Shown here piece after piece: positions 9,909-58,891 of a DNA stretch of 63,592 bases. The first letter of the stretch is position 1, and the number at the start of each line of letters is the position of its first letter. Origin of the DNA: Muribaculaceae bacterium (GTDB lineage: Bacteria > Bacteroidota > Bacteroidia > Bacteroidales > Muribaculaceae); NCBI GenBank assembly GCA_017409345.1, contig JAFQSX010000037.1:1-63592 (forward strand), read 5' to 3'. The translations under genes were made by a program, and so were the position numbers. The notes below the pieces were generated by a model that made no database searches, was not told the DNA's origin, and was given only the letters and a program-made list of their open reading frames with translations.

Positions 9909-10187
9909 ATGGAAGAGAGACTTATTTATGAACATTTGGTATGCAAAGCATTTAAGTGTTGTAGGGCAGATGTGTATTTTGCTGATGCAGATGTGTATGA
10001 TGCGTTGATTAATTCTGTTAAAGAAGATTTATTAAAAGAGTATGTGTTAATAGCCTTGAAATTATTAATCATATATGGTGATTTTGTGGGAGAACAATTA
10101 AGATACCTAGAGGACGTATTTAATAATTTATACATAGGGACGCATTCAATAGATGAAACCCTTAAATCAATACAATTATATGTATAG
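9909..10187 (+). CDS. small hypothetical protein
   Basis: A 92-residue, mostly helical, acidic protein (MEERLIYEHLVCKAFKCC at the start) with no signal peptide or motif I recognise. A purine-rich segment with AGGAG lies upstream. Its end overlaps the region just before the surface-protein gene. It lies in an AT-rich accessory patch together with the palindrome and the 9-nt repeats. It may be a real gene, as codon use matches the following gene, but no function can be given. Confidence 0.5.
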   Translation: MEERLIYEHLVCKAFKCCRADVYFADADVYDALINSVKEDLLKEYVLIALKLLIIYGDFVGEQLRYLEDVFNNLYIGTHSIDETLKSIQLYV

Positions 10188-10215
10188 TAAGAATAATATC
10201 AATAGTAATAGAAAA

Positions 10216-42896: not shown

Positions 42897-43289
42897 ATGA
42901 AATATACTCTCGAACAAAGAAAAGAACGCGCTCGTGCGTTGCACAAACAAGGATATAACTGCTCGCAATGTGTGGTGATGGTATTTGACGATGTTCACGG
43001 ATTGAGCGAAGATGTTGCTGCTCGTGCTTCGGCCGGTTTTGGCGGAGGAATAGGGGGCATGCGACAAGTCTGTGGCGCCGTGTCGGGCATGGTGATGCTC
43101 GAAGGACTTGTGAAATATTCGCATCCGTCTGACAAACCGATGCTTTATGCCGAGGTAAAGGCTGCAGCCGAGGAATATAAGGCGATGAATGGCTCGGTGG
43201 TGTGTGGCGACTTGTTGAAGCCCGGTCGCAAGCCATGTATCGAACTCATCGAAGATGCTATCACAATTATTGACACACGTTTACGTTAA
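42897..43289 (+). CDS. C-GCAxxG-C-C family redox protein
   Basis: 130 residues. The cysteine pattern defines the family: NCSQCV near residue 22, the QVCGAVSGMVM core near 57-67, then VCGDLL and PCIELI near the C-terminus. Family members are thought to bind a redox cofactor or metal; some relate to split-Soret cytochromes, but no CxxCH haem motif is present here. The role is unknown. The gene is flanked by direct copies of a REP-like repeat. Confidence 0.85.
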   Translation: MKYTLEQRKERARALHKQGYNCSQCVVMVFDDVHGLSEDVAARASAGFGGGIGGMRQVCGAVSGMVMLEGLVKYSHPSDKPMLYAEVKAAAEEYKAMNGSVVCGDLLKPGRKPCIELIEDAITIIDTRLR

Positions 43290-43332
43290 ATAGATATAGA
43301 TAGATTTATAGATAATGCGTATATTTGGATTC

Positions 43333-43393
43333 AACCCCCTCCCGGCTTTGCCCTATTCCTCCTATCGCTGCGCGATAGAGGGAAAGTTTTGTG
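43333..43393. repeat. REP-like intergenic repeat, copy 3
   Basis: CCCCCTCCCGGCTTTGCCCT, then ATTCCTCCTATCGCTGCGCG, then ATAGAGGGAAAGTTTTG. It is a close relative of the copy at 42806. It lies within an upstream in-frame extension of the following gene, which argues that the extension is not translated. Confidence 0.7.
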
Positions 43394-43419
43394 CTGATGT
43401 GAGGTCACATAGGATAGGG

Positions 43420-44682
43420 GTGATTCGGATTTTTACAATATTATTAGCGGTGTTGTTGCCGTCGGTGCTTTTTGCGGCCGATGTTGATGACACACTGAAT
43501 GGTATCTTTGATGCACGCTTTAAGACCTTGCAGGTGAAAGTAGAGGGAAATGATTATGCTCCTCCGGTAATTACACTTGGCACCGATGATAGGGTGATGA
43601 TATCGTTTGATGAATTATCTGAAGAACATAGTTATCTTCGATATTCGCTAGTGCATTGTAATGCCAATTGGCAACCTTCGGGATTGGTTGACTCTGAGTT
43701 TATTGATGGATTTAATCTAGGAGATGTTGAAGAATATGAGTATTCGCAACTGACTAAGGTGCATTATGTGCATTATACAATAGCGTTGCCCAATGATGAG
43801 GTGCGATTTACCGTGTCGGGAAATTACCTGTTGCGTGTTTTCCCTGAAAATGACCCCGAAAACATATTGTTGCAAGCACGATTCATGGTGAGCGAAGCAA
43901 AAGCGATGATAGGAGCAAGTGTGACTTCTCGCACCGATGTGGACTATAATAGTGCGCATCAGCAGTTGTCTCTTGAAGTAGATGCTTCAAAGTTGAATGT
44001 ACAAGATATGTATAATGACTTGAAAGTTATAGTATCGCAAAATTCACGAGTAGATAATGAAGTTGTTGTAGAAAAACCACTTCGTGTGTCGTTGAATAAA
44101 GCATATTATGAGCACCTTTCGCCACTTGTGTTTAAGGCAGGGAATGAATATCGTCGCATGGAGACAGTGTCTGTGACATATCCCGGGATGCATATTGAAG
44201 AGATTGGATATCGAGAACCATATTACTATCAAGTATTAGAAACCGATAAATTACGTTCAATAGGTCAATATCTGTATGACCAGACACAATTTGGTCGTTT
44301 TACTATTCGCGAGTATAACTCATCGCAAAGCGATATAGAGGCCGACTATGTGTTGACTCATTTCTCGTTAGAGTTGCCCGAGCAATATGAATATGGCATC
44401 TTTTTAGATGGAGATTTTACGCATCGTCGCTTTGATCCGGAGTCGCGAATGGTTTATAATCGTGCCACCGGATTATACGAAAAGTCACTTCTTCTAAAAC
44501 AGGGAGCATATAATTATCAATATCTTGCAGTGCCCATCGGCTCAATGTCAGGGGCAACGGCTCCCATTGAAGGCGACTTCTATGAAACGGTAAATGAATA
44601 TCTCGTAAAAGTATATTATCATCGTCCCGGTGAACGCTACGACCGCCTTGTGGGTGTGGCAGTGATTTATTCGGGCAAATAA
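43420..44682 (+). CDS. type IX secretion system plug protein (DUF5103 family)
   Basis: About 420 residues. It matches the DUF5103 family (for example DDRVMISFDELSEEHSYLRY and YSLVHCNANWQPSGL, VHYTIALPN, YEYGIFLDGDFT). Members are described as plug proteins that close the outer-membrane SprA translocon. The signal peptide VIRIFTILLAVLLPSVLFA begins at the GTG at 43420, which follows AGGATAGGG. The upstream ATG at 43315 would translate a REP-like repeat, so GTG is the better start. The other type IX genes are not in the window. Confidence 0.85.
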   Translation: MIRIFTILLAVLLPSVLFAADVDDTLNGIFDARFKTLQVKVEGNDYAPPVITLGTDDRVMISFDELSEEHSYLRYSLVHCNANWQPSGLVDSEFIDGFNLGDVEEYEYSQLTKVHYVHYTIALPNDEVRFTVSGNYLLRVFPENDPENILLQARFMVSEAKAMIGASVTSRTDVDYNSAHQQLSLEVDASKLNVQDMYNDLKVIVSQNSRVDNEVVVEKPLRVSLNKAYYEHLSPLVFKAGNEYRRMETVSVTYPGMHIEEIGYREPYYYQVLETDKLRSIGQYLYDQTQFGRFTIREYNSSQSDIEADYVLTHFSLELPEQYEYGIFLDGDFTHRRFDPESRMVYNRATGLYEKSLLLKQGAYNYQYLAVPIGSMSGATAPIEGDFYETVNEYLVKVYYHRPGERYDRLVGVAVIYSGK

Positions 44683-44713
44683 AATATTAAAATTGGAAAC
44701 TAACGAAGAAATA

Positions 44714-45298
44714 ATGTTACAGATAAAAGATACCCTTGTTTCGCTCGACCTTGCCGAGCAATTCTTTTGTTGCGACCTCGACACTTGTCTTGGCGAATGT
44801 TGTATCGAAGGCGATGCCGGCGCTCCTATCACCGAAGAGGAGCAAGAGAAGATAAAAGAGATACTCCCTGTGATTTGGGACGACCTTTTGCCCCAAGCGC
44901 AAACCGAGATTGAAGCCAATGGAGTGGGGTATGTCGATGAAGAGGGCGATTTGGTGACATCAATCGTCGATGGTAAAAATTGCGTGTTCACTTGCTACGC
45001 TCCCGGAGGTATGTGCCAATGTGCTATTGAAAAGGCCTATCGTGCCGGTAAGATTGACTTCTATAAGCCATCGTCGTGCCATCTTTATCCGGTGCGATTG
45101 AAAGAGTATTCATCGTTTACGGCAGTGAACTATCACCGTTGGAAAATATGCAAATGTGCCGAACTGCTCGGCCGCAAAAATGGTGTGCGCCTATATCAAT
45201 TCCTCAAAGAACCATTGACACGCCGCTTTGGTAAGGATTGGTATGACGAACTCGTGATGGCCTGCGAAGCCTACCTCGAAGAATACGGAGGGAAGTAA
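44714..45298 (+). CDS. DUF3109 family protein
   Basis: A cysteine-rich cytoplasmic protein of about 194 residues with the pattern FFCCDLDTCLGECCIEGDAG near residue 17, then CVFTCYAPGGMCQCAIE and SSCHLYPVRL. It belongs to DUF3109, whose clustered cysteines suggest an iron-sulfur or zinc centre; the function is unknown. The ATG at 44714 begins the conserved MLQIKDTLVSLDLAEQF. It follows the DUF5103 gene by about 30 bases and is probably co-transcribed. Confidence 0.85.
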   Translation: MLQIKDTLVSLDLAEQFFCCDLDTCLGECCIEGDAGAPITEEEQEKIKEILPVIWDDLLPQAQTEIEANGVGYVDEEGDLVTSIVDGKNCVFTCYAPGGMCQCAIEKAYRAGKIDFYKPSSCHLYPVRLKEYSSFTAVNYHRWKICKCAELLGRKNGVRLYQFLKEPLTRRFGKDWYDELVMACEAYLEEYGGK

Positions 45299-45367
45299 TA
45301 ATGCATAATTAACTCGGTCGAGCCTCGTTGAGCCCTCCGGGGGGCATAATGCAAAATTAACGAGGGA

Positions 45368-45540
45368 ATCTTAACTAAACTCTCTTCTTGAAATTTGAAA
45401 AATTTTAGGAGGAACAATGGTGCCAATGAGAGCCAGAACTCTCCTCTTGAAAATTACAAAGTAATTTTTAGGAGGAGTACGGCGAAGTCGGGAGGTGGTT
45501 CATGCTTGATTATTGCCGAGTGCAGCCATTGAAGACATAG
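45368..45540. repeat. REP-like intergenic repeat, copy 4 (inverted and partly duplicated)
   Basis: The 400-base gap 45299-45699 has no gene. It holds two related hairpin units, CTCTTCTTGAAATT..AATTTTAGGAGGA and CTCCTCTTGAAAATTAC..GTAATTTTTAGGAGGAG. These are followed by TACGGCGAAGTCGGGAGGTG and TGATTATTGCCGAGTGCAGC, the reverse complement of the 20175-20240 copy. Short ATGCATAATTAA and GCAGAATT motifs fill the rest. Confidence 0.65.
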
Positions 45541-45619
45541 TTAGTACCACGAAAGGGGAGGTGGTTAGAATAATGCTTATTTAATGCAGGATGCTGAGTG
45601 CTGAATGCAGAATTATAAA

Positions 45620-45665
45620 CAATGGGCTGTATCCAAACTGAATTGTGATACAGCCCATTGGCTTT
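45620..45665. terminator. bidirectional terminator before the PepSY-like gene
   Basis: The 14-bp stem CAATGGGCTGTATC / GATACAGCCCATTG lies between convergent genes, with T- and A-rich flanks. Confidence 0.8.
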
Positions 45666-45699
45666 TATTATGACTTATCTTAACTGTGATTTTGTCGAA

Positions 45700-46143
45700 T
45701 TAACGGCGCCCTTTTATAGAACCGTCGAGATTGAAACGGATTTCGTGGTCATTTGAGTTGTTGATATCGACAACGATGCTGTTGCGGCGGAATTCTACGT
45801 CATCAACTCTGTCGGCAAGACCTTGCGCTATGAGATATTGTAACGCCTTGGCAGGAAGGATAGCCTTCAATACCGATTGAGCAATCACACCATGGTCAGC
45901 CTCGATTTTTACCAGCTTGCCATTGCGATTAAACTCAAGGTCAACGCCATTGCTCAACTCCACATTATACTTCATGTCGTCAATCTCACATTCATAGATT
46001 GTAGTACCCGCATAATGCTTGTTTATAAACGCTTTAGCCTCATTGGGAAGCTCATTTGACGAAATATTTCTGTCGGCAAACGCCACAAAACCGATAGTCG
46101 AAATCAATCCTATCGCTAAAAAAATACCTAAAAATCTTTTCAT
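45700..46143 (-). CDS. PepSY-like exported protein
   Basis: About 147 residues with a signal peptide (MKRFLGIFLAIGLISTIGF, cleavage after AFA). Two similar halves contain the PepSY-like/BLIP-like pattern (ELPNEAKAFINKHYAGTTIY with YNVELSNGVDLEFNRNGKLV, then AILPAKALQYLIAQ with EIRFNLDGSIKG). Such proteins are periplasmic and may bind or inhibit peptidases. An ATG four codons upstream is possible. It marks the left border of the low-GC island. Confidence 0.78.
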   Translation of the reverse strand: MKRFLGIFLAIGLISTIGFVAFADRNISSNELPNEAKAFINKHYAGTTIYECEIDDMKYNVELSNGVDLEFNRNGKLVKIEADHGVIAQSVLKAILPAKALQYLIAQGLADRVDDVEFRRNSIVVDINNSNDHEIRFNLDGSIKGRR

Positions 46144-46361
46144 TCTAATAATCATTTAGTGGTTAATAATGCAATATTACATCATTATGACCAAATAACC
46201 CCTATAAAGTTTAACTTATTTGGAACGATTACAAATAATTTAACTAAAACAAGTGATTTTTTACGATTATTAAGCGTTGCTTTGGAACTCTGTAGAATTG
46301 CAAGATTATATTTTAGTTATAAAAATAAAGATTAACACAATAGAAATCAATTAAATTTGAC

Positions 46362-46369
46362 TATATTTG
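46362..46369 (+). promoter_or_regulatory. candidate -7 box of the island operon
   Basis: TATATTTG fits TAnnTTTG and lies 35 bases before the first island gene. No clear -33 box is visible. Confidence 0.4.
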
Positions 46370-46404
46370 TGAAATATATAAACTAACTTAAAACTAAAAA
46401 ACTA

Positions 46405-47934
46405 ATGCCAATTAATAGAATTAGAGAAAAAATAAACATAATTGAGGAACAAGAGGAGAACAATCAATATAACATTGATAGAGTAGTAAATAGTATAATA
46501 AGATTATACAATAAAAAATCGTTAGTTCCTGTGATTTGCGAAGATATGTATGAGTATATTAATCCAGAAACTAATGAACACCAATCATTACATTCTTATT
46601 TGATAGAAAAGGTTGTCGAACAGGTTATCAAACAGAATGATTCATTATCATTAACTGAAACAGAACTAAATGATATAGTGAATGGTGGTTATTATGGAAT
46701 GTCATTGTTAAGAGAAAAGATTAGACGAGAAATCTTTGAGGAAATTCATAGTGCTATATTTGATAATAATGTTAATATTAATGAAGGAATCCATTTGAAA
46801 CAAGAAGTTCAAGAATTTTTAAAAGTGTGTAAATTTCCATTAATAGTAACGACGTGTTGTTTTCCAATAATTGAGAAAGAATTAAAAAACTATACTAGTT
46901 ATTGGTGTGAACTTGAACAAAAAAATGATGAAAAACTACAAGATAGATGTGTCTATCATCTATTTGGGGAGGCGCAATCGAATACCCCAGATTGGGGATA
47001 TGATGAAAAACGATTGTTGAAATTTTTGAAAAATATATATACAGATGATTATTCTCTTAAAAATCTCACATCTGCAATAAATAGCAGACCTCAAAAAACG
47101 CTATTTGTAATGGGTAATCATGCTCCTGATTGGTTGTTCCGGTTTATTCTAACTCCAATTTATGGTGATGATTTATATAACGATGGAAAAGGTTTTTATA
47201 TGAATGAAGATGTTCGTAAAAAGGAAGCCACTTTAAGCCAGTTTTTACGTGATATTCATTTTGAACAAGAATCCCAATTGAAGGAGGTCTTGATAACAGT
47301 TACGAATAAAATTAGTAGTCAAAATAATAATCAGACGGAAGGGCAAAATGATAAAAGAAAACCACATGGATTTGAATATGATTTCTTTGTAGCTCATGCA
47401 AGTGAAGATAATGAAACTGCACAAAAAATGGTGGAAGTTATGGAAGATAATGGGTTGAATGTGTGGGCAGATTTTAGACAGATAGTTGATGGTACATATT
47501 GGGATACAATAATAAAAGGACTGAAAAATTCGGCATATTTTATGCCATTAGTAACGGAGAATTATTTAACGAAGATAAAAAAGAAAGAAATGAAGGATAA
47601 AATTTTGTCGTCAAATGGTATCTCTGAAATTTCATTAGATGGGTCGGTTTGTGCGAATCTAAAAGGCTTAGATGGTGTTCAAATAGAATTATTGTTAGCT
47701 GAAAAATGGTTAGAACAAAATCCTAAAAAAACATATTCAATACCAGTAATATTAAAAGGGTCTGAATGTGTAGGTGAACCGATAACGTGTGGCAGAGTTG
47801 AGAACTGGGGAGTAGACTCAAAGATATTACCCAATAGTCTGTTTAAGGGGATTCAAATGAAAGAATTTGATGCTAATAATCCTCAATCGTTTGCATTAAA
47901 TTGGGGTAGATATAAATATAAAATAGAAGAATAA
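46405..47934 (+). CDS. SIR2-like / TIR fusion protein
   Basis: 509 residues, no signal peptide. Residues about 38-290 resemble the SIR2_2-type nucleotide-binding fold of bacterial immune proteins: FPLIVTTCCFPIIE, CVYHLFGEA (His of the HG position) and KTLFVMGNHAPDWLFRFIL. The usual GAGxS loop is not visible; IC-EDMYEY stands in its place, so NADase activity of this half is doubtful. Residues about 320-505 are a TIR domain (YDFFVAHASEDNETAQKMVE, VWADFRQIVDGTYWDTI), with the probable catalytic Glu at about 428 (VQIELLLAEKW) after an insertion. TIR domains can cleave NAD or make cyclic ADP-ribose variants. It is the first gene of the operon, 5 bases before the STAND gene. Confidence 0.82.
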   Translation: MPINRIREKINIIEEQEENNQYNIDRVVNSIIRLYNKKSLVPVICEDMYEYINPETNEHQSLHSYLIEKVVEQVIKQNDSLSLTETELNDIVNGGYYGMSLLREKIRREIFEEIHSAIFDNNVNINEGIHLKQEVQEFLKVCKFPLIVTTCCFPIIEKELKNYTSYWCELEQKNDEKLQDRCVYHLFGEAQSNTPDWGYDEKRLLKFLKNIYTDDYSLKNLTSAINSRPQKTLFVMGNHAPDWLFRFILTPIYGDDLYNDGKGFYMNEDVRKKEATLSQFLRDIHFEQESQLKEVLITVTNKISSQNNNQTEGQNDKRKPHGFEYDFFVAHASEDNETAQKMVEVMEDNGLNVWADFRQIVDGTYWDTIIKGLKNSAYFMPLVTENYLTKIKKKEMKDKILSSNGISEISLDGSVCANLKGLDGVQIELLLAEKWLEQNPKKTYSIPVILKGSECVGEPITCGRVENWGVDSKILPNSLFKGIQMKEFDANNPQSFALNWGRYKYKIEE

Positions 47935-47939
47935 CGGAT

Positions 47940-50279
47940 ATGGAAAGAATAGGTAATCCGTGGTTAGGATTGGCTTCTTATGAAGAAAAAGATGAATATC
48001 GTTTTAAGGGAAGGAACAAAGATGTCGAATGTGTTTTAACAAAACTTCAGCAGAATGATAGTTTAGTTTGTTATGCAGAATCAGGAGCCGGTAAAAGTTC
48101 GTTGATTAATGCCGGCTTAAGTCCTGCTATGCGACGGAATAGAATGTTCCCAATTCGAATAAAATTCACAACCGAAGAATATGAAGGGAAAAATATCCCA
48201 TTAAAAAAAGAAGATGAAACGATTGATTTTGATCAATTGATATTAAAAAAAATAAACCAATCCTTGGAAATATATAAACAAAATGTTTTAGAGATTTATG
48301 ATTTTGGTGAGGATTTTGCGATAAATTTTGAACAAATAGAACAATATAAAACAAAAGAACAATATAAAACAAAAGAACAATATAAAACAAATATAAATAA
48401 TGGTATTAGTAGTCTATGGTGGAAATTGCGAACTGAGACCATACGAATAACGTTTGGCGAGTATGACTATATTCCTGTTTTAATATTTGATCAATTTGAA
48501 GAAATTTTTAGTGCAACATGGACGAAAGAGTTCTTTCAATGGTTAGAAATATTGATGAAGGATGTTTGCCCAGATTCTGTAAGTATAGATAAAGAATACT
48601 ATAAAGAAGGACATAGAATCCCCAATAAGAAACTGTTTAAACTATTGTTGTCTTTAAGGTCAGAGTATATTGGTGAATTAGACTATTGGTGTGGACAAAT
48701 TACTTTTATACCTCAAATACAAAAAAATCGTTATTTTTTAAAGTCATTTACAAAAGAGCAGGCTATTGAAGTGATATCGGCTCAAGATCAAGATGATGAA
48801 ATTTCTAAAAAACTTAAAGAAGAAGCTAATATTATTGTAGATTGTATTCTTGATGCATCAGGGATGGAAAAAGGAGTCTCGGATATAAATGAAGTCCCAT
48901 CGGTTGCGTTATCATTAGTTTGCCATAGTATATATAATGAATGGGGCGAAAATGAATCATTTTCATTAAATAAATATAATCTTGATGACTTGATTTATGA
49001 TTTTTATAGGAATCAGTTAAATAGTATAGGGATTTCAGATAATTATCGGCATGTTTTAGAGACAGTACTTATTTCATCACAGAAAAAAAGATTAAGAATC
49101 CCTATCTCAGATTCTCGATTGTTTGGAATACAACAAGCCTTAAACAATCTCATTTCCCAACATATTATTAAATGTGAAAATATAAATGGAGAGAAATATA
49201 TTGAATTAGTACATGATTGCCTTGTACAAGCAATATATAAAAAAAGTAGAGAAGAAAGAAAAGATAATGTTACGAAAGAAAAAATAAATAAGAATATAGC
49301 CACTTTTTTTAAAAAGATAAATATAATTTTATTTATAATCGTAAGTATTACATCATATTTAGTATTATACCCCAATGTTGATTTTGCTAAGAGCGAAAAT
49401 GCAAGTATATTGGCAACCGGATTTGAACTAAATAATAAAAATCTAATCATAGATTCTGTAAATAAAAAAATAAGTCTACCCAAAGATAACGCATTTAGAA
49501 ATGCTACGTCCTTATCAATAAATGGAGGGGGATATAAATCGTATGAGAATGTTGTATATACTAATCCGTGGTATAATTATTATCAAACACACAACCCTTC
49601 TATATTTGAAGATATTCCTGATTTAGACAAGGAAATCAAGATGTGTAATTACGCTCAAAATGCAAAATCTATAGTAATTGGTGAGATTGATTCAATTTGC
49701 CATTTTAATTTTGGCCAAAATGTTCATCAAGTGATCTTCTTATCCCCAGAAATGGTAAAATCGATACAATGTCAAAATAATAGAACGCAAATATATGTGC
49801 CATATAAATATTTTGATTATTGTAGAGAATTAGCTGCTTTTGATGGGGTATCCTACAAAGAATTGGGAGTGTTTGAGACAATAAAAGAACGATTATGCTA
49901 TAATAATTTTATTTATAACGGGGAGTTTCGCTTTGTAATAAATATGATTGTTCCAATCGTAATAATTTTTATAATATTTATTTGTTTATTGAGACAATCA
50001 AGAATTGTGAAATTTAAATTATTTGTAAATATGATATTATATTTAATATTAACCATTTTACTATTTCTCAATTTAGATTATTGCTATCAAATAGGAGATA
50101 TTATATTTGTGCTTTTAATGTCAGTTTTTTTAGCTAGATGCTTTACTATTTATGATATATATAAAATGAGTAATAAATGGAAGTACTCTATTGTATATAA
50201 TAATAATTCAGATAAACAAAATGCGATAAATGTAAAAAAAAAGATTATTAAATGCAGGATTCTCCGAACGAGAAATTGA
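47940..50279 (+). CDS. membrane-bound STAND NTPase (nSTAND1-like), frame ends at an A9 tract
   Basis: 779 residues. It begins GNPWLGLASYEEKDEYRFKG, the usual entry to nSTAND1 modules. Walker A is AESGAGKSS at residues 46-54 and Walker B is PVLIFDQFEEIF at 179-190. The STAND helical part follows to about 430 (GEKYIELVHDCLVQAIYKK). A membrane segment lies near 460, a periplasm-like domain at 480-660, and three more membrane segments at about 665-750. STAND proteins are ATP-driven sensors that oligomerise on a trigger. The frame closes soon after nine consecutive A; the adjacent frame continues with coherent sequence, so the full product is probably a 923-residue fusion. Confidence 0.8.
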   Translation: MERIGNPWLGLASYEEKDEYRFKGRNKDVECVLTKLQQNDSLVCYAESGAGKSSLINAGLSPAMRRNRMFPIRIKFTTEEYEGKNIPLKKEDETIDFDQLILKKINQSLEIYKQNVLEIYDFGEDFAINFEQIEQYKTKEQYKTKEQYKTNINNGISSLWWKLRTETIRITFGEYDYIPVLIFDQFEEIFSATWTKEFFQWLEILMKDVCPDSVSIDKEYYKEGHRIPNKKLFKLLLSLRSEYIGELDYWCGQITFIPQIQKNRYFLKSFTKEQAIEVISAQDQDDEISKKLKEEANIIVDCILDASGMEKGVSDINEVPSVALSLVCHSIYNEWGENESFSLNKYNLDDLIYDFYRNQLNSIGISDNYRHVLETVLISSQKKRLRIPISDSRLFGIQQALNNLISQHIIKCENINGEKYIELVHDCLVQAIYKKSREERKDNVTKEKINKNIATFFKKINIILFIIVSITSYLVLYPNVDFAKSENASILATGFELNNKNLIIDSVNKKISLPKDNAFRNATSLSINGGGYKSYENVVYTNPWYNYYQTHNPSIFEDIPDLDKEIKMCNYAQNAKSIVIGEIDSICHFNFGQNVHQVIFLSPEMVKSIQCQNNRTQIYVPYKYFDYCRELAAFDGVSYKELGVFETIKERLCYNNFIYNGEFRFVINMIVPIVIIFIIFICLLRQSRIVKFKLFVNMILYLILTILLFLNLDYCYQIGDIIFVLLMSVFLARCFTIYDIYKMSNKWKYSIVYNNNSDKQNAINVKKKIIKCRILRTRN
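48339..48392 (+). repeat. in-frame 18-bp minisatellite in the STAND gene
   Basis: Three tandem copies of GAACAATATAAAACAAAA (last base changed in the third) encode EQYKTK repeats at residues 134-151. Copy number can change without breaking the frame. Confidence 0.85.
50234..50242 (+). other. nine-A homopolymer, likely frameshift or phase-variation site
   Basis: TGT followed by nine A and GATT. Removing one A (or adding two) joins the STAND frame to the downstream frame, giving VKKRLLNAGFSEREIE and then the rest of the C-terminal domain. Confidence 0.65.
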
Positions 50280-50712
50280 ATTGGATTTAGGCCTATTTAG
50301 AGGAGGAATGGTTAATTTAAATCGTATAAAAGAAAAAATATTATCAGCGAAACATATTATTCTAATCTTAAGTGAAACAACAAATAATGATGAAGATGAT
50401 AAATATTATGAAATTATAAGGAAAAACGTGAAATATAATTGTTTTATTCATCCCATTATTTGTGGAAAATATTCGGATAAAAGTGTAAATAAAATAAAAA
50501 AGATAAAAAGAGGATTTTTGTTAAAATCAATAGTTCTACCTGAAATTTGTGTTGAAGAAAAAGGCGGAGAAGAAATGTTGATAAACGGATTAAAGAGAAC
50601 CGGATTAATAAGATCTTTTAATAACGTGATTAAAGTATGTGTGTTGATCGTGTTTATCGTGTTTATCTTAAATTTTGTCTTGGTATTAATGGAAATAATG
50701 AATATAATATGA
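50236..50712 (+). CDS. C-terminal domain of the STAND protein, out of frame (TIR-like alpha/beta plus membrane helix)
   Basis: This frame opens just after the A9 tract and runs 158 codons. It has no convincing independent start; a TTG at 50281 and an ATG at 50308 are inside the domain. The sequence pattern (AINVKKRLLNAGFSERE, RIKEKILSAKHIILILSE, FIHPIICGKYSD) alternates helices and strands like a TIR or TIR-like domain; this is a weak call. It ends in a hydrophobic helix (VIKVCVLIVFIVFILNFVL). It is expected to be translated as a fusion with the preceding gene after slippage, or is a remnant left by a frameshift. Confidence 0.6.
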   Translation, partial: KKRLLNAGFSEREIELDLGLFRGGMVNLNRIKEKILSAKHIILILSETTNNDEDDKYYEIIRKNVKYNCFIHPIICGKYSDKSVNKIKKIKRGFLLKSIVLPEICVEEKGGEEMLINGLKRTGLIRSFNNVIKVCVLIVFIVFILNFVLVLMEIMNII

Positions 50713-50837
50713 AATTAGCACACTAATTGGAACTATCGCTATTAAATGTATACGGAAGCCATATATTGATTCAAGGGAATTTTAAGGCTGTAAATATTTA
50801 TAGTGATTATATGTTAGAGAGATGAGAAATATAGCAT

Positions 50838-51578
50838 ATGATAAAAAATAAAATATCAATGTATTCGCCAATATTGGCATCGGCACAATTGGCATTGGAG
50901 CAAGAAAATAACGATGTTGCGATTGCCAAGGTTAAGGAGTACGCACATAAAATGTCTCAATTTTATGAAAAAGGAGATGTCTCTTATGACGCAATTTGGA
51001 GTGCATATATTGGTGCCTACAATGCAAGTATAATATTGGGTAAAGTAGGCGACTATGAAGCTTTAGATTATGCCGAAAAAGCAGTTGAACTGTCGTATAA
51101 AATGTTTAATACGAATGGTTCCAACTATGATGCTATAGCTGTTGTGTCGGCATCGACATCCTTATTGTCAATTATTTTTCAAAAGGATACAAATAGCATA
51201 CCTTCGTGGAAGATTGATAATATAGATACAACTAAAATACGAGATAACGCAAGGGGTATAGCTCAGGAATTACGAACACGTTTCCCTAATGATAAAGAGG
51301 TCTTAGATACTATTGTTTTTTTTGACTTTATAGATACAGAATTTAGAGACGAAGAAGAAAAATTTAAAATTCAGGAAGGAGATGTCATAGATGTGATGAT
51401 GAGAGAAGTCATTGAAAAGAGTAAAAATTGGCAGTCTTATTCACACCGAATTGAAAAAGAAAAAGAACAACAGAAAAAGAAGGGTAGGCAAGAACGTCAG
51501 TTTAATATAATTCCAATTGTAGTTGCACTTGTGGTCATTATCGCATTGTGCTGTTTATATTTTTATTCAATAAAATAA
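50838..51578 (+). CDS. tail-anchored TPR-like helical protein
   Basis: 246 residues, no signal peptide. Residues 10-165 are helical with TPR-like spacing (VAIAKVKEYAHKMSQFYEKG, AIWSAYIGAYNASIILGKVG, EALDYAEKAVELSYKMF). A basic coiled-coil stretch (RIEKEKEQQKKKGRQERQ) precedes a single C-terminal membrane segment (IIPIVVALVVIIALCCLYFY). It lies 10 bases before the channel gene, so it is co-expressed and probably attached to the same membrane. I do not recognise the family. A 125-base gap separates it from the STAND unit. Confidence 0.65.
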   Translation: MIKNKISMYSPILASAQLALEQENNDVAIAKVKEYAHKMSQFYEKGDVSYDAIWSAYIGAYNASIILGKVGDYEALDYAEKAVELSYKMFNTNGSNYDAIAVVSASTSLLSIIFQKDTNSIPSWKIDNIDTTKIRDNARGIAQELRTRFPNDKEVLDTIVFFDFIDTEFRDEEEKFKIQEGDVIDVMMREVIEKSKNWQSYSHRIEKEKEQQKKKGRQERQFNIIPIVVALVVIIALCCLYFYSIK

Positions 51579-51588
51579 TATACTAAAT

Positions 51589-53793
51589 ATGAAAAATAAA
51601 CTTGTGAAAATTCTTACAGTAATTGCAATCGTAATAGGAGCAATGTGGCTGGGGCGAAAAATAAAATATTTGTTTCGACGTAGAGTAACTATTGACCGAA
51701 TGTTGGTTCAAGGGAAGTTTACGACAGTATTAAGACTATTAGGAGCAGTACTTGTACTGTTGGGTGTATTTACAGTGTTGTTAGATGTTTTGGGCTTTGA
51801 TGGCTCAACTCTATTTAGTAGTAATTCGGAAAATAAAGATTCGGGATTGTTATGGTCAGTAGTATATCATTTTGCCGATCCGGGAAATCAGCACATGGCT
51901 CAATCGGGAGTCGCTAGATTGATTGTGTTGCTGTTGGCACTGTCGGGTTGTGTGATATTAAATGGGATTTTAGTGTCAGCAATCATAGGATGGTATGAGC
52001 GCTTTGTGGATAAATGGCGTATGGGGTTAGCACGATATGATAAACTATTGGAACAATGTAATTTTGGAGTGATAATAGGAGGAAATGAGATGGTATTTGA
52101 CCTAATTAAGCAAATATTAGGTAATGAATCATTAGATTACATAGTTTTACAGACAAATCAAGATGTAGAGGCATTGCGAAAACAACTTTGCTCTTTCCTA
52201 TTACCAGAGGAAGAAAAAAAGGTGATAATTTATTATGGAGAACGAACATCACAAGATGACATTAAAGATTTACATTTAGATTGTGCAAAAATGGTATATA
52301 TTTTAGGCGAAAGCTTAAAACGAGGCTGTTGTGAAACAAATAGCGAGCAAAATCATGATGCATTAAATATGAAATGTATGCAATTAATCGTAAATTATTT
52401 AAATGATAGAAGTGTTGTCGATTCGTCAAAATTGATATGTTATGTGTTATTTGAATATCAAACAACATTCTCAATATTCCAATTTTCAGATATAAATACC
52501 CCAATAATAGATTTCAGACCAATTAACTATTATGAAATGTGGTCTCAACGAGTATTGGTAAATGAAAATTTGAAATTAGAAGAATTAAATAATGATGATT
52601 ATTTGCCATTAGAAGGAAAAAATCCTATAACACACGAAAGTGATGATTTTGTTCATCTAGTCGTTGTGGGAATGTCAAAAATGGGAGTGGCTATGGCTAT
52701 TGAAGCAGCACATATAGCTCATTATCCCAATTTCGTGAGAAATCAGACTTGTAAAACTCGCATTACGTTTATCGATAAAGAGTGTGATACAGAAATGCTA
52801 TATTTTCAAGGCCGTTTTAAGAGTATGTTTGATTTGGCAATGTGGCGATATGTAGAGAGCAAAGGAAATTATGAATTGTATAAGCAATCAAATGAAAAAG
52901 GAAATAAAGGAGGTTGGGAAAACTTAAATAAGTTTTCTGAAAATCATTATTTAGGCGAAGATTTTATTGATGTTGAATGGGAGTTTATAAAAGGTGGAAT
53001 AGAAACTCCTGAGATTCGAAAATATCTTGAAGAAGCTTCAGCTAATAGCCATGCCCGATTTACGTTGGCTATTTGTTTGCCTCAAGATTATCAAAGTATC
53101 GCTGCATCATTGTATCTTCCTAATGTGGTATATGAGAATGCAATACAAATTTTAATATATCAAAGACAAAGCAATTCAACTATAGAAAGCATATCAAAAG
53201 ATTTAATTTATGGTAAAATTAAAGCATTTGGTATGTTGGAAAAGGCATACGAGCATAACCTAATAAAAAAAATGTATGCTATAGCTGATAAATTAGGTAA
53301 AAAATATGATGAAATGTACCAAGAAGTGACTAAAGAATATGAGCAAGAAGACAAAGACTCAAATAAGCCAGTTGGTCAAACAGAAATCAAAAAACGTGGA
53401 AAATCAGCGGCAGCTAAGATGTGGAGCAATATTTATAATGCAAATACATTGTGGACAAAATTGCGAAGTGTAAATAGTCAAGATGGAACAATCAGCGAGA
53501 ATGATATCGATAAATTAGCAAGAACTGAACATAACAGATGGGTTGTGGAGCAGTTGTTGATGAGATTTAGGGCATTGACAAAAGAAGAGCAAAAACAAGT
53601 AGTTAGCGGAGATTTAGATAAAGATAAACTAAAGGGCGAAAAAATGGCTCATTTGGATATTTGTTCAACTGACAAATTATCTGAGATTGATAAAATAGTA
53701 ACAAAATATGATAAGGGATTTATTAAAATTATAACAAATATTATTACTGAAATATCTAATACTCAAAATATAGAAGATGAAAAAAATGAATAA
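51589..53793 (+). CDS. CASTOR/POLLUX-like ion channel with RCK-type domains and RyR-like C-terminus
   Basis: 734 residues. Membrane segments are at about 5-21, 46-68 and 108-135. The pore loop LLWSVVYHFADPGN (88-101) lies between the last two and resembles the ADxGN filter of CASTOR/POLLUX (DMI1) channels. Two Rossmann-like regulatory domains follow (NFGVIIGGNEMVFDLIKQIL from 158; FVHLVVVGMSKMGVAMAIE from 354), like RCK/TrkA-N. The C-terminal part (about 641-720: LARTEHNRWVVEQLLMRFR, then KMAHLDICSTDKLSEIDK) matches the bacterial RyR-domain pattern. The inferred role is a gated cation channel whose opening depolarises the cell. The ion and ligand are unknown. Confidence 0.72.
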   Translation: MKNKLVKILTVIAIVIGAMWLGRKIKYLFRRRVTIDRMLVQGKFTTVLRLLGAVLVLLGVFTVLLDVLGFDGSTLFSSNSENKDSGLLWSVVYHFADPGNQHMAQSGVARLIVLLLALSGCVILNGILVSAIIGWYERFVDKWRMGLARYDKLLEQCNFGVIIGGNEMVFDLIKQILGNESLDYIVLQTNQDVEALRKQLCSFLLPEEEKKVIIYYGERTSQDDIKDLHLDCAKMVYILGESLKRGCCETNSEQNHDALNMKCMQLIVNYLNDRSVVDSSKLICYVLFEYQTTFSIFQFSDINTPIIDFRPINYYEMWSQRVLVNENLKLEELNNDDYLPLEGKNPITHESDDFVHLVVVGMSKMGVAMAIEAAHIAHYPNFVRNQTCKTRITFIDKECDTEMLYFQGRFKSMFDLAMWRYVESKGNYELYKQSNEKGNKGGWENLNKFSENHYLGEDFIDVEWEFIKGGIETPEIRKYLEEASANSHARFTLAICLPQDYQSIAASLYLPNVVYENAIQILIYQRQSNSTIESISKDLIYGKIKAFGMLEKAYEHNLIKKMYAIADKLGKKYDEMYQEVTKEYEQEDKDSNKPVGQTEIKKRGKSAAAKMWSNIYNANTLWTKLRSVNSQDGTISENDIDKLARTEHNRWVVEQLLMRFRALTKEEQKQVVSGDLDKDKLKGEKMAHLDICSTDKLSEIDKIVTKYDKGFIKIITNIITEISNTQNIEDEKNE

Positions 53794-54076
53794 TAATTAT
53801 TTCCCCAATCCAGTAGATATATCAGATGTAGTTTTACCAAAAGAATTGGACGCATTAGTAGAATCTATCGCAAAGAATGTTCATGATGTGTGGGCTCAAG
53901 GTCGCATATCTGATGGTTGGAAATATGGCAAACAAAGAGATGATAAAAACAAATTGCACCCATGTTTAGTTCCGTATGAAGAACTACCAGAGGGTGAAAA
54001 AGAGTATGATCGAAAAACAGCAGTCGGAACCCTTAAACTCATAATAAAATTAGGCTTTAAGATAGAGAAAATATAA
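53777..54076 (+). CDS. stand-alone RyR-domain protein
   Basis: 99 residues, almost entirely one ryanodine-receptor-type (RyR) domain: LVESIAKNVHDVWAQGRISD, GWKYGKQRDDKNKLHPCLVP, YEELPEGEKEYDRKTAVGTL. The start overlaps the end of the channel gene by 17 bases (or 8 if the ATG at 53786 is used), so translation is coupled. RyR domains in animals are part of calcium-release channels and can bind nucleotides; in bacteria the role is not settled. It may be a soluble ligand-binding partner of the channel. Confidence 0.82.
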   Translation: MKKMNNNYFPNPVDISDVVLPKELDALVESIAKNVHDVWAQGRISDGWKYGKQRDDKNKLHPCLVPYEELPEGEKEYDRKTAVGTLKLIIKLGFKIEKI

Positions 54077-54120
54077 GCAACATTTCCCTATTAAATAAAA
54101 AAGCTGTATTGGATTTTAAG

Positions 54121-54909
54121 CTATTCAATAGATTTTAGATATATTTTGTCTAAGATATCGGCTAAAAATTCTTCAGAAATGTTTGAATTAATTTGAATTG
54201 GGACATATAGGCAGTTGCGTGTTTCACAGAAGTGAGCTATTTTACTGATAATCATTGATGCCCATTGATTATCGCAATTAAATAAGTGAGGGGAAATAAT
54301 AGGCACAAATATGCCTTTAGTAGTGGCAGTTTGAATTATTGGGTAGATATTGTTTTCTAAATAAACTTCTAATGCAGTCTTATATTTTTGAAATTCCCAA
54401 GTGGGTAAATTCTTTATGGTAGGGGCGTAATTTGCTTCAATACTTACGTTTTCTATGTGATATCCTTTTTCTGATAATTTCTGGGTTATATTATTTGCAA
54501 TAGTTTTGTCTTCATAGTGGTTAAAATTACATAATATTATTGTATTTCGTCTGAGTAATTTTGATATTTCCATTAAAATATTTGGCAAAGAATGAGTGAA
54601 CCCTTCTTCAATGTCAATCTCATATAGACGATTCTTATCTAATTGTCGAATATATTCTAACTCTTTTTTTACCCAAATACTTTCTTCTGAATTTTTAGAC
54701 TTACAATAAATAAATATATTTCTGGCTTCAATCTCTTTCTTGATAAATTCTTCTAAAACTTCATTATCATCATCAAGACATTTTAAATAAAACATAATAG
54801 GGTTGCAATTTATTACTTCTAAAACATCTCTAATCTTTCTAATTTTTTCAACATCTTTGTGAGAATGGGAAAGAAACACCGACAAGTTTGATTTTTTAGT
54901 GTCGTTCAT
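54121..54909 (-). CDS. double TIR-domain protein
   Basis: 262 residues, cytoplasmic. The first TIR spans about 8-120: LSVFLSHSHKDVEKIRKIRD, IKKEIEARNIFIYCKSKNSE, then IWVKKELEYI with the predicted catalytic Glu at 83. Residues about 134-255 repeat the alpha/beta pattern (RRNTIILCNFNHYEDKTIAN, GIFVPIISPHLFNCDNQWAS) and look like a second, diverged TIR. Its strand is opposite to the channel operon and convergent with it. It is the last gene after the Panacea pair, 57 bases downstream. It probably supplies NAD-derived signals or acts as NADase. Confidence 0.75.
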   Translation of the reverse strand: MNDTKKSNLSVFLSHSHKDVEKIRKIRDVLEVINCNPIMFYLKCLDDDNEVLEEFIKKEIEARNIFIYCKSKNSEESIWVKKELEYIRQLDKNRLYEIDIEEGFTHSLPNILMEISKLLRRNTIILCNFNHYEDKTIANNITQKLSEKGYHIENVSIEANYAPTIKNLPTWEFQKYKTALEVYLENNIYPIIQTATTKGIFVPIISPHLFNCDNQWASMIISKIAHFCETRNCLYVPIQINSNISEEFLADILDKIYLKSIE

Positions 54910-54966
54910 GATTTAATCGGTTGTAGAAAATATATAATTTCTTATTAAATAGTATTCTTTGTTGTG

Positions 54967-55386
54967 TTAGTAAAAGAATTGTCGTTTTTCTTTTGCTGTA
55001 AATAGATTACTATTACGGCAGACTTCTAATACGGCAACCAAGTCATTCTCAGTTAATTCTCCAACGATTGAGGTTTGACCATCTTGCATGGATTTTACTA
55101 ATGCATCAACTTTGCGTGTTTGAAGCTCATTTGCACCCAAGAATGAATCGTAACGAAGAAAATCATAATCGCATTTACGTAGCTGATATTGCATTGCAAA
55201 TAGTTCAGACTTAGATTCGATTATAGGGTGAATACGTGAGTTAATGAAGAAAAAACCTGCAATTTTATCTTGGTACACACCTATTATGGCAAAGAATTTA
55301 GAATGGTCAATATCTTCAAAACTATTAGATAGTAATATTGAACCTCGTTTTATGCCTTTTTGCAGTAGCTGTAAGGGTAAGTCCAT
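54967..55386 (-). CDS. putative toxin partner of the Panacea protein
   Basis: 139 residues with beta-rich pattern: LLQKGIKRGSILLSNSFEDI, FAIIGVYQDKIAGFFFINSR, DYDFLRYDSFLGANELQTRK, SIVGELTENDLVAVLEVCRN. The layout resembles small PemK/MazF-fold proteins, but this is inferred from pattern only. The start codon overlaps the stop of the Panacea gene (TAATG), the arrangement expected of a toxin following its antitoxin. Confidence 0.5.
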   Translation of the reverse strand: MDLPLQLLQKGIKRGSILLSNSFEDIDHSKFFAIIGVYQDKIAGFFFINSRIHPIIESKSELFAMQYQLRKCDYDFLRYDSFLGANELQTRKVDALVKSMQDGQTSIVGELTENDLVAVLEVCRNSNLFTAKEKRQFFY

Positions 55387-55934
55387 TATAGAAATGCTGC
55401 TTTAAGTTTTAGGGAATCAGCAATATATTCCACATAAGCCTCATCATCGCCAGCCTCACGCAAAATATCTTTTACCGACATTTCTCTATCAGGACGTGTG
55501 TTGTTCCACGCCATACCATGTGAATATGCAGTCAATTCATCGAAATTTTTGTTTCGGCAAAGATTAACGGCGTAATCGAGACATTCAATATCAGAGCCTG
55601 ACAATTCGTCCATGTCGGGTTCTTTAACGCCTCGCACTATGAATCTATTTTCAAAAATTATGTAATTTTTTAGCTTTGTAATTTCTTCATTTGAAGAGAA
55701 AAAACTATCCCCTCTCAAAGCTTTGAGAATATCATCTACACACGAAGGAACCGGACCATATTGCATCGCAATATACGTGTCTCCGGTAATGCTTCGCCCA
55801 TATTGAGAGAGATGTTTTTGGTCGGCAAAATAAAGAATCTTGCACAACTTATGCATATCGGTCTTACCGCCTAATTGCGACAAAGAATATAAAAGAGAAT
55901 TTATAGCTTTGTCATAGTTAAATAATTTACTCAT
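55386..55934 (-). CDS. Panacea-domain (SocA-like, DUF4065) antitoxin
   Basis: 182 residues. The N-terminal part matches the Panacea domain: LGGKTDMHKLCKILYFADQK, LSQYGRSITGDTYIAMQYGP and VPSCVDDILKALRGDSFF. These domains neutralise or deliver diverse toxins for proteolysis, as SocA does. The gene has its own good promoter and is the first gene of a three-gene - strand unit (Panacea, putative toxin, double TIR). Confidence 0.85.
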   Translation of the reverse strand: MSKLFNYDKAINSLLYSLSQLGGKTDMHKLCKILYFADQKHLSQYGRSITGDTYIAMQYGPVPSCVDDILKALRGDSFFSSNEEITKLKNYIIFENRFIVRGVKEPDMDELSGSDIECLDYAVNLCRNKNFDELTAYSHGMAWNNTRPDREMSVKDILREAGDDEAYVEYIADSLKLKAAFL

Positions 55935-55968
55935 TGCCGATATTATTTTAGTATTAATATTGTTAATG

Positions 55969-56000
55969 CAAAATTAGACATTAAACTCTATGATTCCAAA
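55969..56000 (-). promoter_or_regulatory. promoter of the Panacea/TIR unit
   Basis: On the - strand TTTG (56000-55997) and TAATTTTG (55976-55969) are 20 bases apart, about 35 bases before the Panacea start codon. Confidence 0.65.
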
Positions 56001-56198
56001 TTATAATGTGTTGAAATTTTGAAATGTTTAAAATTATTCGATTTGTTTAATTTTTCTGTTCATAGAGTTTTTTAGGTAGGAATCTGTGTTTTTGATGTGA
56101 GGAGAAAATATTATTTGCACTTTCTTTGCGTTAAATGGGGGAGTTGTGGGTAGATTTGTGTAACTTTGCAGATTGAAATGAATTTTAACTGCCGGTTT

Positions 56199-57998
56199 AT
56201 GCAGAAGATTAGAAATATTGCTATTATTGCGCATGTTGACCACGGGAAAACTACTGTGGTTGATAAGATGTTGCTTGCGGGTAACCTGTTCCGCGAAAAT
56301 CAAAATGCAGGTGAATTGATTCTTGATAATAATGACCTTGAGCGTGAACGTGGGATTACTATCCTGTCTAAAAACGTGTCGATCGACTACAAGGGTTATA
56401 AGATAAATATTATTGATACTCCGGGACACGCCGACTTTGGTGGCGAGGTGGAACGTGTATTGAATATGGCCGATGGCTGTCTGCTATTGGTTGACGCTTT
56501 TGAGGGGCCAATGCCTCAAACACGTTTTGTGCTTCAAAAGGCTATCCAAATGGGGTTGAAGCCTGTGGTGGTTATCAATAAGGTTGACAAGCCTAACTGC
56601 CGCCCCGATGAAGTGCAAGAGATGGTGTTTGACCTCATGTTTAATCTTGATGCGACTGAGGAACAACTCGATTTCCCAACAATCTACGGTTCAGCAAAGC
56701 AAGGTTGGATGAGCACCGATTGGAACAAGCCTACCGAAAACATTCTTCCGTTGCTTGATGCTATCATTGAACACATTCCCGAACCGGAGGTGATTGAGGG
56801 TGATGCACAAATGCTTATCACTTCGCTCGATTTCTCTAACTATGTGGGACGTATTGCCATAGGTCGTGTGCATCGTGGCGAATTGCGTGAGAATATGGAT
56901 ATTGCTCTCTGCAAGAAAGATGGCACGGTGGTGCGTCAACGCATCAAAGAGCTTCACACATTCGAGGGCATGGCTCGCAAGAAGGTGGAGAGTGTGAAGA
57001 GTGGCGATATTTGTGCGCTTGTGGGTATTGAAGGATTTGAAATTGGCGACACTGTGGCCGACTTTAACAATCCCGAACCACTTCCACGCATTGCAATCGA
57101 TGAGCCTACGATGTCAATGACTTTCACAATCAACGATAGTCCATTCTTTGGTAAAGATGGTAAATTTGTAACTTCACGCCACATTGCCGACCGTTTGGAA
57201 AAAGAGCTCGATCGTAACCTCGCATTGCGTGTGTCAAAAGCCGACCACGAAGATGTGTGGACCGTGTTTGGTCGTGGTGTGCTTCACCTCTCGGTGTTGA
57301 TTGAGACAATGCGTCGCGAGGGTTATGAATTGCAAGTGGGACAACCACAAGTAATCATCAAAGAGATTGACGGCATGAAGTGTGAGCCTGTTGAATTGCT
57401 CACAATCAACGTCACAGAGGAGTACTCAAGCAAAATCATCGATATGGTGACTCGTCGCAAGGGCGAAATGGTGACTATGACTGCACAAAACGACCGTGTA
57501 CACATGGAATTCCACATCCCATCGCGTGGTATCATCGGTTTGCGTAACAATGTCTTGACCGCCTCGGCCGGTGAGGCTATTATGGCACACCGTTTCCACG
57601 AATATCAACCATGGAAAGGTGATATTGAGCGTCGTACAAATGGTTCGCTCATCGCTATGGAAGCCGGCACAGCATATGCCTACGCTATCGATAAGTTGCA
57701 AGATCGCGGCCGTTTCTTCATCTTCCCACAAGAGGAGGTTTATGCCGGACAAGTGGTAGGAGAGAACGCCAAGGATAATGATATAGTGGTGAACGTGACC
57801 AAGTCGAAGAAGTTGACCAATATGCGAGCATCGGGAGCCGATGATAAGGCGCGTATCATTCCTCCGGTAGTGTTCAGTCTTGAAGAAGCACTCGAATATA
57901 TCAAGGAAGATGAATATGTAGAGGTAACACCTCACCACATTCGCTTACGCAAAATAATACTTGATGAAATCGAGCGTAAACGCGCGAATAAAGTGTAA
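56199..57998 (+). CDS. typA: translational GTPase TypA/BipA
   Basis: A ribosome-binding GTPase involved in large-subunit assembly and stress. About 599 residues. The G1 motif is AHVDHGKTT near residue 10. [12 protein letters not shown] (G3) and [15 protein letters not shown] (G4) are intact, and the EF-G-like domains and the unique C-terminal domain ([20 protein letters not shown]) follow. The ATG at 56199 begins the conserved [11 protein letters not shown]; an ATG at 56178 is possible. A -7 box (TAACTTTG at 56161) lies just upstream. Confidence 0.96.
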
Positions 57999-58029
57999 TT
58001 ATCACTAAATACATCTATAAACGATAATA

Positions 58030-58064
58030 GAGGCTGTGTCAAGATTTTGATACAGCCTCATTTT
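58030..58064 (+). terminator. intrinsic terminator of typA
   Basis: The stem GAGGCTGTGTCAA / TTGATACAGCCTC is followed by ATTTTT. Confidence 0.88.
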
Positions 58065-58111
58065 TAAATCGTATAGAATTATTCTTTTATTGTTGAAATT
58101 TTCAGTGGAAT

Positions 58112-58891
58112 TTATGCGTTGTGAGAAATGATGGCATTGAGTCGTTGTTCAAGGTCGGTGGTAGAGAGACGCATTCTTAAATCGCCTTTGTGAGCAATTG
58201 AAATGGTTCCGGTTTCTTCCGATACCACGACAGCAATCGCATCGGTGGCTTGAGATATGCCTAATGCTGAGCGATGGCGAAGTCCAAGTGAACGAGGAAT
58301 TGATGTGTCATGACTTACCGGTAGAATACAACCTGCGGCTTTGATGCGGCTATTAGCGATAATCAAAGCTCCATCGTGTAGTGGTGAGTTTTTAAAGAAA
58401 ATATTCTCAATCAATCGAGAATTTATTGCCGAATCAATTTTGTCGCCTGTATTTTCATAATTTTCAAGTGGAAGATCTTGTTGTATTACAATAAGCGCAC
58501 CGGTCTTGCTTTTAGATAGACTCATGCATGCGCGTACAATAGCCATAATCCATTGGTGGGTATCATTGTCAATCACCTCATTTTTATGAGAGAATAATCT
58601 GCGAAGAAAACGCCAACGCTTGTGAGACCCCAAGTCAACAAGAAAACGCTTTAATTGGTCTTGGAATAGGATTACAAGTACCAATAAACCGATATTCATA
58701 AATTTGTCAAGGATTGTGCCGGTGAGGCGCATCTCAAGCATTGGGGATGCCACTGCCCATACCGCAATAAATGCCATTACTCCATAGAAAATGTTGATTG
58801 CACCCGATTCTTTCATCAAGCGATATAGGTAGAATAGCAATAATGCAACGATTAATATGTCAAAAGCATCTTTTATGCTGAAAAAATCCAT
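58112..58891 (-). CDS. cdaA: diadenylate cyclase CdaA
   Basis: Makes the second messenger cyclic di-AMP from two ATP. It has 259 residues. N-terminal membrane helices span about 10-75. The DAC domain has the catalytic PLHDGALIIANSRI near residue 165 and LGLRHRSALGIS near 200 (DGA and RHR motifs). It starts 4 bases after folP on the same strand, a pairing that is usual in Bacteroidota. Cyclic di-AMP generally controls potassium and osmotic balance. Confidence 0.94.
   Translation of the reverse strand: MDFFSIKDAFDILIVALLLFYLYRLMKESGAINIFYGVMAFIAVWAVASPMLEMRLTGTILDKFMNIGLLVLVILFQDQLKRFLVDLGSHKRWRFLRRLFSHKNEVIDNDTHQWIMAIVRACMSLSKSKTGALIVIQQDLPLENYENTGDKIDSAINSRLIENIFFKNSPLHDGALIIANSRIKAAGCILPVSHDTSIPRSLGLRHRSALGISQATDAIAVVVSEETGTISIAHKGDLRMRLSTTDLEQRLNAIISHNA

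Follow-up and report, generated by a model that had tools for sequence, protein, structure and literature searches.

Thoeris is a good place from which to look at the locus described here, a 9,856 bp AT-rich island in a 63,592-nucleotide stretch of a Muribaculaceae genome (contig JAFQSX010000037.1 of GenBank assembly GCA_017409345.1; 2.09 Mb in 38 contigs), and we call that whole stretch the window. As in Thoeris, a TIR protein lies near an effector with a domain of the type that takes ADP-ribose (ADPR) ligands, and weak matches to ThsB models occur in all three TIR-like pieces of the window, those of a TIR gene that converges on the operon reaching 7.9e-10 at best. Unlike in Thoeris, the effector that we propose is a two-transmembrane (2TM)/RCK channel with a RyR end, the partner is a STAND protein, and ThsA models found no match among ten window proteins at E values up to 0.1. 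Our best explanation, which we hold with modest confidence, is that the STAND protein triggers a TIR domain, that a product derived from nicotinamide adenine dinucleotide (NAD) binds RyR, and that the channel then opens. Conflict systems combining TIR, SLOG, RyR and TrkA-N domains were reportedly set out by Burroughs and co-workers in 2015, who are said to have predicted that nucleotide signals are sensed by RyR and TrkA-N proteins.

The channel recalls the plant channels CASTOR, POLLUX and DMI1 in its 2TM pore, its AD-x-GN filter and its RCK region, and differs from them in giving no match to Castor_Poll_mid (PF06241) and in ending in a RyR-like domain. Animal ryanodine receptors differ from it in overall build, the RyR repeat alone being common to both. 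In those receptors the repeat domain has an adenine-ligand pocket, according to a preprint on phage RyR proteins that is covered here in part (PMC13232231). The same source describes RyDEP, which binds or cuts 2' and 3' cyclic ADP-ribose (cADPR) and whose pocket residues are H75, W78, H100 and D117. The window shares with RyDEP the PF02026 domain and the same four ligand residues; it differs in that its RyR domains are encoded by the host, are fused to or paired with a channel, and are proposed to serve as receptor or regulator rather than in evasion. The sections of the preprint covered here name no bacterial channel fusion. Finally, DUF4062, the domain of the Swarozyc systems, is described as a TIR-like NADase (PMC13174449), and DUF4062-STAND proteins adjoin a channel and RyR in one relative of our locus (L033, from a genome outside the counts given below) and a RyR-ended channel in another (L118, from genome G410, which has no TIR_2 match nearby). 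Swarozyc, by contrast, is described as acting by NAD depletion, and a term search of the available text returned neither RyR nor channel (PMC13174449). Among the titles and abstract openings listed we found no bacterial TIR-RyR-channel system described, which is not a claim of absence from print, and works citing a 2025 preprint on TIR-based systems do not, in the passages covered, describe a RyR channel.

A channel with a RyR-like end

The initial annotation had placed RyR-like sequence both at the end of the channel and in a small free protein, and for the free protein this is borne out by a domain score of 124.2 bits against a cut-off of 27.4. The window channel compared with Pfam gives no direct RyR match, and it is through relatives that the domain at its C-terminus can be recognised: a profile of 38 channel ends, set against one of 33 RyR proteins, matched with a probability of 94.4% and an E value of 9e-8, while five other channel segments reached 2.1% at most. 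The 38 ends exclude five channels whose RyR domain passes the cut-off and three outgroups (L131-L133). Three relatives (L115, L116 and L117) hold TrkA_N and RyR above Pfam cut-offs in a single chain, and two further channels (L109 and L118) hold RyR above cut-off. All of this supports the view that the channel C-terminus is a divergent RyR domain.

The residues of the ligand pocket are also in place. In the free protein they are H36, W39, H61 and D78, with exactly the spacing of RyDEP (3, 25, 42), and in the channel end they are H648, W651, H688 and D708. The HWHD quartet is kept, in a program-made alignment, in 39 of 46 non-duplicate matches to the channel profile, the window included (there were 49 before duplicates were removed, and the 46 contain a 756-residue neighbour in L030 and two short proteins); the outgroups account for three of the seven exceptions. 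Among the RyR proteins, 24 of 33 have the full quartet, and H, W and D are found in all 33. The proposed flow from NAD product to RyR to channel gains support because these four ligand residues are kept in the channel end. Homology and the conserved residues support binding of an ADPR-type signal by the RyR domain there, and as the binding site RyR appears better supported than RCK. The two short proteins (L111 and L112; 368-388 amino acids) match the end of the channel profile only, keep HWHD and adjoin a free RyR protein.

A pocket of this kind could also serve as a brake. On that account the free RyR protein, possibly together with the end of the channel, would destroy or hold the TIR signal, and the RCK region would gate by NAD, ADP-ribose or Ca2+. 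It is in keeping with this that cADPR isomers are cut by phage RyDEP and held by several homologues from phages (PMC13232231), that H36 and D78 of our free protein match the catalytic pair, that free RyR proteins sit on viral contigs, and that RCK domains can respond to nucleotides (PMC6957272, covered in part). Yet when eight further homologues were tested, binding was seen for six, and cutting is reported for none in the parts of the preprint covered (PMC13232231); having the dyad thus need not make a protein an enzyme, and a brake would have no need of fusion to a channel; we regard this account as distinctly unlikely. The viral proteins in question are 55-67% identical to the window's and lie on six contig pieces (L145-L150), which have no channel or SIR2-TIR matches; they are perhaps anti-signal proteins. 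A total of 185 phage records match at E values up to 1e-5, and phage-borne RyR would fit an arms race over an ADPR-type ligand.

A pore like that of CASTOR

In the window channel the filter lies between hydrophobic segments 50-68 and 111-129, with another such segment at the extreme start, and is followed by RCK-like sequence, for which the best Pfam indication is a Slo-like RCK match at 0.002, below cut-off. The initial annotation had called it CASTOR/POLLUX-like. When 18 channels were aligned, their profile found DMI1 (1.4e-4), BK (1.4e-4), CASTOR (4.3e-4) and the TrkA domain protein 4gx5 (0.003), and Castor_Poll_mid is carried by the three weak relatives L131-L133. CASTOR has the filter AD-S/A-GNHA, is Ca2+ selective and requires the filter Asp (PMC6697748, covered in part). 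That Asp is kept in 14 of our 18 channels; the filter resembles that of the plant protein, and the pore is possibly Ca2+-passing. The channel relatives that have names are Bacteroidales metagenome-assembled genomes; none was found in a plasmid search or in a viral search, a draw on the phylum at 1e-30 returned the window's own genome only (1 of 296), and PADLOC models at E values up to 0.1 matched neither the channel nor the free RyR protein.

Taken one step further, this could be a single-chain, cADPR-gated cation channel of bacterial immunity, probably Ca2+-passing, in which the TIR product, on the channel's own RyR domain, would open a CASTOR-like pore and RCK ring, and the free RyR of phages would be a counter-weapon. 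Bacteria would then have a counterpart of the debated animal pathway from cADPR to the ryanodine receptor. We offer this tentatively, as a possibility that still falls on the doubtful side.

Channel and RyR across the order

How constant is the pair? We sampled 393 genomes of the order, taking the channel profile at E values up to 1e-10 and PF02026 up to 1e-5. The channel profile finds 42 genomes and PF02026 finds 37, with 23 having both, 19 the channel only, 14 RyR only and 337 neither (p 1.4e-16), and 20 of these 23 have them fused or within 5 kb. The count of 23 overstates the association because the channel profile itself includes the RyR-like end, and the RyR match falls inside the channel frame in G180, G210, G236, G274 and G410. 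A stricter count, which sets the channel threshold at 1e-50 and leaves aside RyR matches inside the channel frame, gives 14 genomes with both, 8 with the channel only, 19 with RyR only and 352 with neither (odds ratio 32, p 9e-12), and 11 of the 14 pairs lie within 5 kb. Channel and RyR are the most constant pair of the set.

The commonest partner found for this pair is TIR. Among the 56 genomes with either channel or RyR, 23 (the window's included) have a TIR_2 match within 10 kb of one of them, against a rough expectation of about 0.6, which assumes 1.71 TIR domains per genome, 22 kb and 3.5 Mb; thirteen further genomes searched for TIR fall outside the 393-genome draw and were excluded from these counts. 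In 20 of these genomes the closest TIR shares the strand (p 2e-4); it does not in the window, G400 and G146. Broken down by group, a nearby TIR occurs in 20 of 37 RyR genomes, in 3 of the 7 whose only match is a strong channel and in 0 of the 12 whose only match is a weak one, and the first of these differs from the last with p 6e-4. In the single-chain relative L117 (G274) the TIR_2 match is far under cut-off.

It might be argued that channel and RyR together serve ion homeostasis or the handling of stress and have no part in phage defence, and several pairs (L028, L029 and L034) are indeed flanked by ordinary-looking genes. Against this stand the patchy spread just described (42 and 37 of 393 genomes), the TIR, DUF4062 and STAND neighbours, and an AT-rich island whose site is almost empty in relatives, and we consider such a role very improbable.

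Other neighbours deserve a word. RyR also ends proteins of 328-380 amino acids in L003, L004, L026, L102 and L123, beside a recurring protein of about 190 amino acids, and these fusions are perhaps a different RyR-reading output. The small proteins gave no Pfam match in the two tested, L123 has a Peptidase_C39_2 match, and the name 'ECF-like', considered for them, was dropped after the two Pfam results. A MutS-type ATPase stands beside channel and RyR in L096 and L098, with lookalikes, judged by eye, near RyR in L121 and L134. Proteins beside the RyR-ended channels in L109, L115 and L116 look SLOG-like by eye, from a G-x-x-GHR motif near the start; Pfam gave no SLOG match for them.

The SIR2-TIR and STAND proteins

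The first two genes of the operon were read in the initial annotation as a SIR2-like/TIR fusion and a membrane STAND NTPase, and both readings hold. The TIR part is matched directly; SIR2 has no Pfam match in the window protein itself and is upheld through relatives, since a protein of the same layout in L030 reaches SIR2_2 at 25.1 bits (cut-off 24.5) and a profile of eight SIR2-TIR proteins finds the SIR2 protein KomC at an E value of 0.0012, along with many TIR structures. Active SIR2 NADases have a catalytic Asn (in TTN) and His (in HG). In the eight aligned proteins the place of the Asn is taken by S, T or C and that of the His by F, so that catalysis by the SIR2 half is improbable, and the TIR half is the likely enzyme. 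E428, picked by eye, is a candidate for the catalytic Glu of the window TIR; the MAFFT alignment of the eight proteins itself places E408, not E428, in the Glu column. The fusion is likely to be an NAD-consuming signal maker, and the nSTAND1 protein, whose domain scores 79.3 bits against a cut-off of 27.1, a likely sensor or switch; PADLOC models at E values up to 0.1 matched it with no family.

A profile of the SIR2-TIR proteins finds 51 of the 393 genomes at 1e-10, of which 15 have full-length matches and the remainder mainly TIR only. Seven of the 15 score 1.3e-130 or better, the others between 1e-30 and 1e-64; those seven are rows of the profile itself and were found through channel or RyR genomes, which biases the count toward linkage. 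RyR or the channel lies within 9 kb in six of the seven, and the seventh, G141, has both farther away. In the other eight genomes (G271, G215, G112, G090, G053, G260, G163 and G046) neither channel nor RyR is found at the cut-offs used, and for six of them the fetched region contains a protein related to the window STAND, the other two contigs being only 7-8 kb long. These six loci (L226 and L229-L233) pair SIR2-TIR with an nSTAND1-type protein in genomes free of channel and RyR matches. SIR2-TIR and STAND form a separate module, frequently though not invariably linked to RyR or the channel.

One could go further and hold that the parts are separate units, SIR2-TIR and STAND forming a self-contained, NAD-depleting abortive system and the channel-RyR pair, the converging TIR and the Panacea-type pair described below being independent of it. 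The eight genomes just named favour this, as do channel-RyR pairs that exist without TIR. On the other side, channel or RyR occurs in 7 of the 15 SIR2-TIR genomes, compared with 56 of 393 in the whole sample (p 0.002, from biased sampling), with six of those seven in close linkage, and the window SIR2-TIR protein, searched alone, has its six best matches (77-87 bits) all in RyR or channel genomes, the other eight scoring 59 bits or less. In G033, from another genus of the family, channel, SIR2_2-TIR, nSTAND1 and an RyR fusion stand in a row (L030). This is where the question of conservation raised by the initial annotation finds its answer: the set occurs together again, its TIR, STAND and RyR domains are found, and on this sequence evidence it is not a chance cluster. 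We think full independence of the parts rather unlikely.

How the parts may work together

In the explanation that we prefer, the membrane nSTAND1 protein would sense infection and switch on the adjacent SIR2-TIR protein, whose TIR domain would convert NAD to an ADP-ribose-type signal, perhaps 2'- or 3'-cADPR. Judging from homology and conserved residues, the RyR domain in which the 2TM/RCK channel ends would bind this signal, and binding would shift the RCK ring and open a CASTOR-like, possibly Ca2+-passing pore, with the result that growth of the infected cell stops. Most likely the free RyR protein has the same ligand, and either helps in gating or mops up the signal and so ends it, and the converging TIR gene may supply the signal as a second source. 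Much of this order of events had been suggested in the initial annotation, and it is supported by the kept ligand residues, by linkage and by the four-part set in G033.

A number of observations weigh against this explanation, and they belong together. The first profile comparison of channel ends with RyR proteins (15 against 12) gave only 2.5%, before the deeper alignments described above. No TIR_2 match lies within 10 kb in 33 of the 56 channel or RyR genomes, the channel-RyR pairs of G002, G005 and G023 have no TIR on the contig, a general clustering of defence genes could raise TIR nearness by itself, and there are the eight SIR2-TIR genomes with neither channel nor RyR. Four of the 18 aligned channels (L005-L008) have T or S in place of the filter Asp, and three of these (L006-L008) adjoin TIR. 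In the window copy the STAND frame is broken at an A9 run, a break that may be real, a matter of slippage, or an assembly fault. The tail-anchored protein, finally, is an orphan with no relative across 148 other genomes of the order, and we have therefore given it no part in the mechanism.

The island and its other genes

The island is sharply set off from its surroundings (Table 1), with a G+C content (GC) of 30.3% against 37.7-43.6% across 364 overlapping segments of equal size from the rest of the window. Its ends are seen in relatives. In G006, of the same genus, the flanks are 96% identical and the positions matching 46249 and 56106 are separated by 345 bp; in G003, a close relative, the flanks are 71 bp apart; and in a third, G011, they align more loosely around about 1.1 kb at the island site. 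A repeat search at the ends gave no clear direct repeats, and an Rfam search at gathering cut-offs over 43000-58500 gave no matches. The island was probably acquired horizontally, with a probable role in anti-phage signalling.

Table 1. Features of the AT-rich island, in window coordinates
Feature	Position	Strand	Length (amino acids)	Basis and remarks
AT-rich island	46250..56105
SIR2-like (degenerate)/TIR fusion	46405..47934	+	509	TIR_2 4.8e-12
nSTAND1 NTPase, four hydrophobic segments	47940..50279	+	779	nSTAND1 5.7e-22; hydropathy
A9 run	50234..50242	+		just ahead of STAND frame end
TIR-like piece in another frame, one membrane segment	50281..50712	+		ThsB model 1e-5
Tail-anchored protein	50838..51578	+	246	hydropathy, segment 224-242
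2TM/RCK channel	51589..53793	+	734	filter ADPGNQ (residues 96-101); C-terminal RyR-like domain
Free RyR-domain protein	53777..54076	+	99	PF02026 2.5e-36; PDB matches 3nrt/6uag
TIR protein converging on operon	54121..54909	-	262	TIR_2 2.3e-11
Unknown protein adjoining Panacea protein	54967..55386	-	139	possible toxin partner by position
SocA/Panacea antitoxin-like protein	55386..55934	-	182	SocA_Panacea 6.2e-22

All of the open reading frames named in the initial annotation are present where it had put them, and its base counts (16 G/C in the 60 bases from 46441, 30 in the 60 from 57001) are exact. Beyond its six genes the island also has features that it had not listed, namely the out-of-frame TIR-like and membrane piece after the A9 run, a pair of genes of Panacea type, and the island ends themselves. 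The out-of-frame piece gave no PDB match. The pair, whose 139 amino acid member has no Pfam match at E values up to 1, looks like a Panacea-type toxin-antitoxin pair within the island. The converging gene had been called a double TIR, of which one half stands: Pfam places a TIR domain in residues 11-92 of 262, with ThsB_TIR at 5e-4 and 20.8 bits, just under the cut-off of 21.2, and no second TIR was found, the second half giving nothing above Pfam cut-offs and a weak PDB match (0.024) to another protein only. Elsewhere in the window, a second low-GC stretch (10153-11904, 28-32%) holds one long repeat-type protein, which is probably secreted.

What the locus would mean

Direct action of cADPR on the ryanodine receptor has long been disputed. 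The phage RyR preprint urges study of this question (PMC13232231), and an RyR-like domain with all four known residues of the cADPR pocket, sitting on a small 2TM channel whose family frequently has TIR genes as neighbours, makes it testable with one purified protein. If our explanation is true, a ligand-gated ion channel, possibly for Ca2+, joins the outputs of TIR signalling, and a reason is offered why phages carry free RyR proteins. Confirmation would give bacterial immunity an ion channel that is opened by an alarm molecule.

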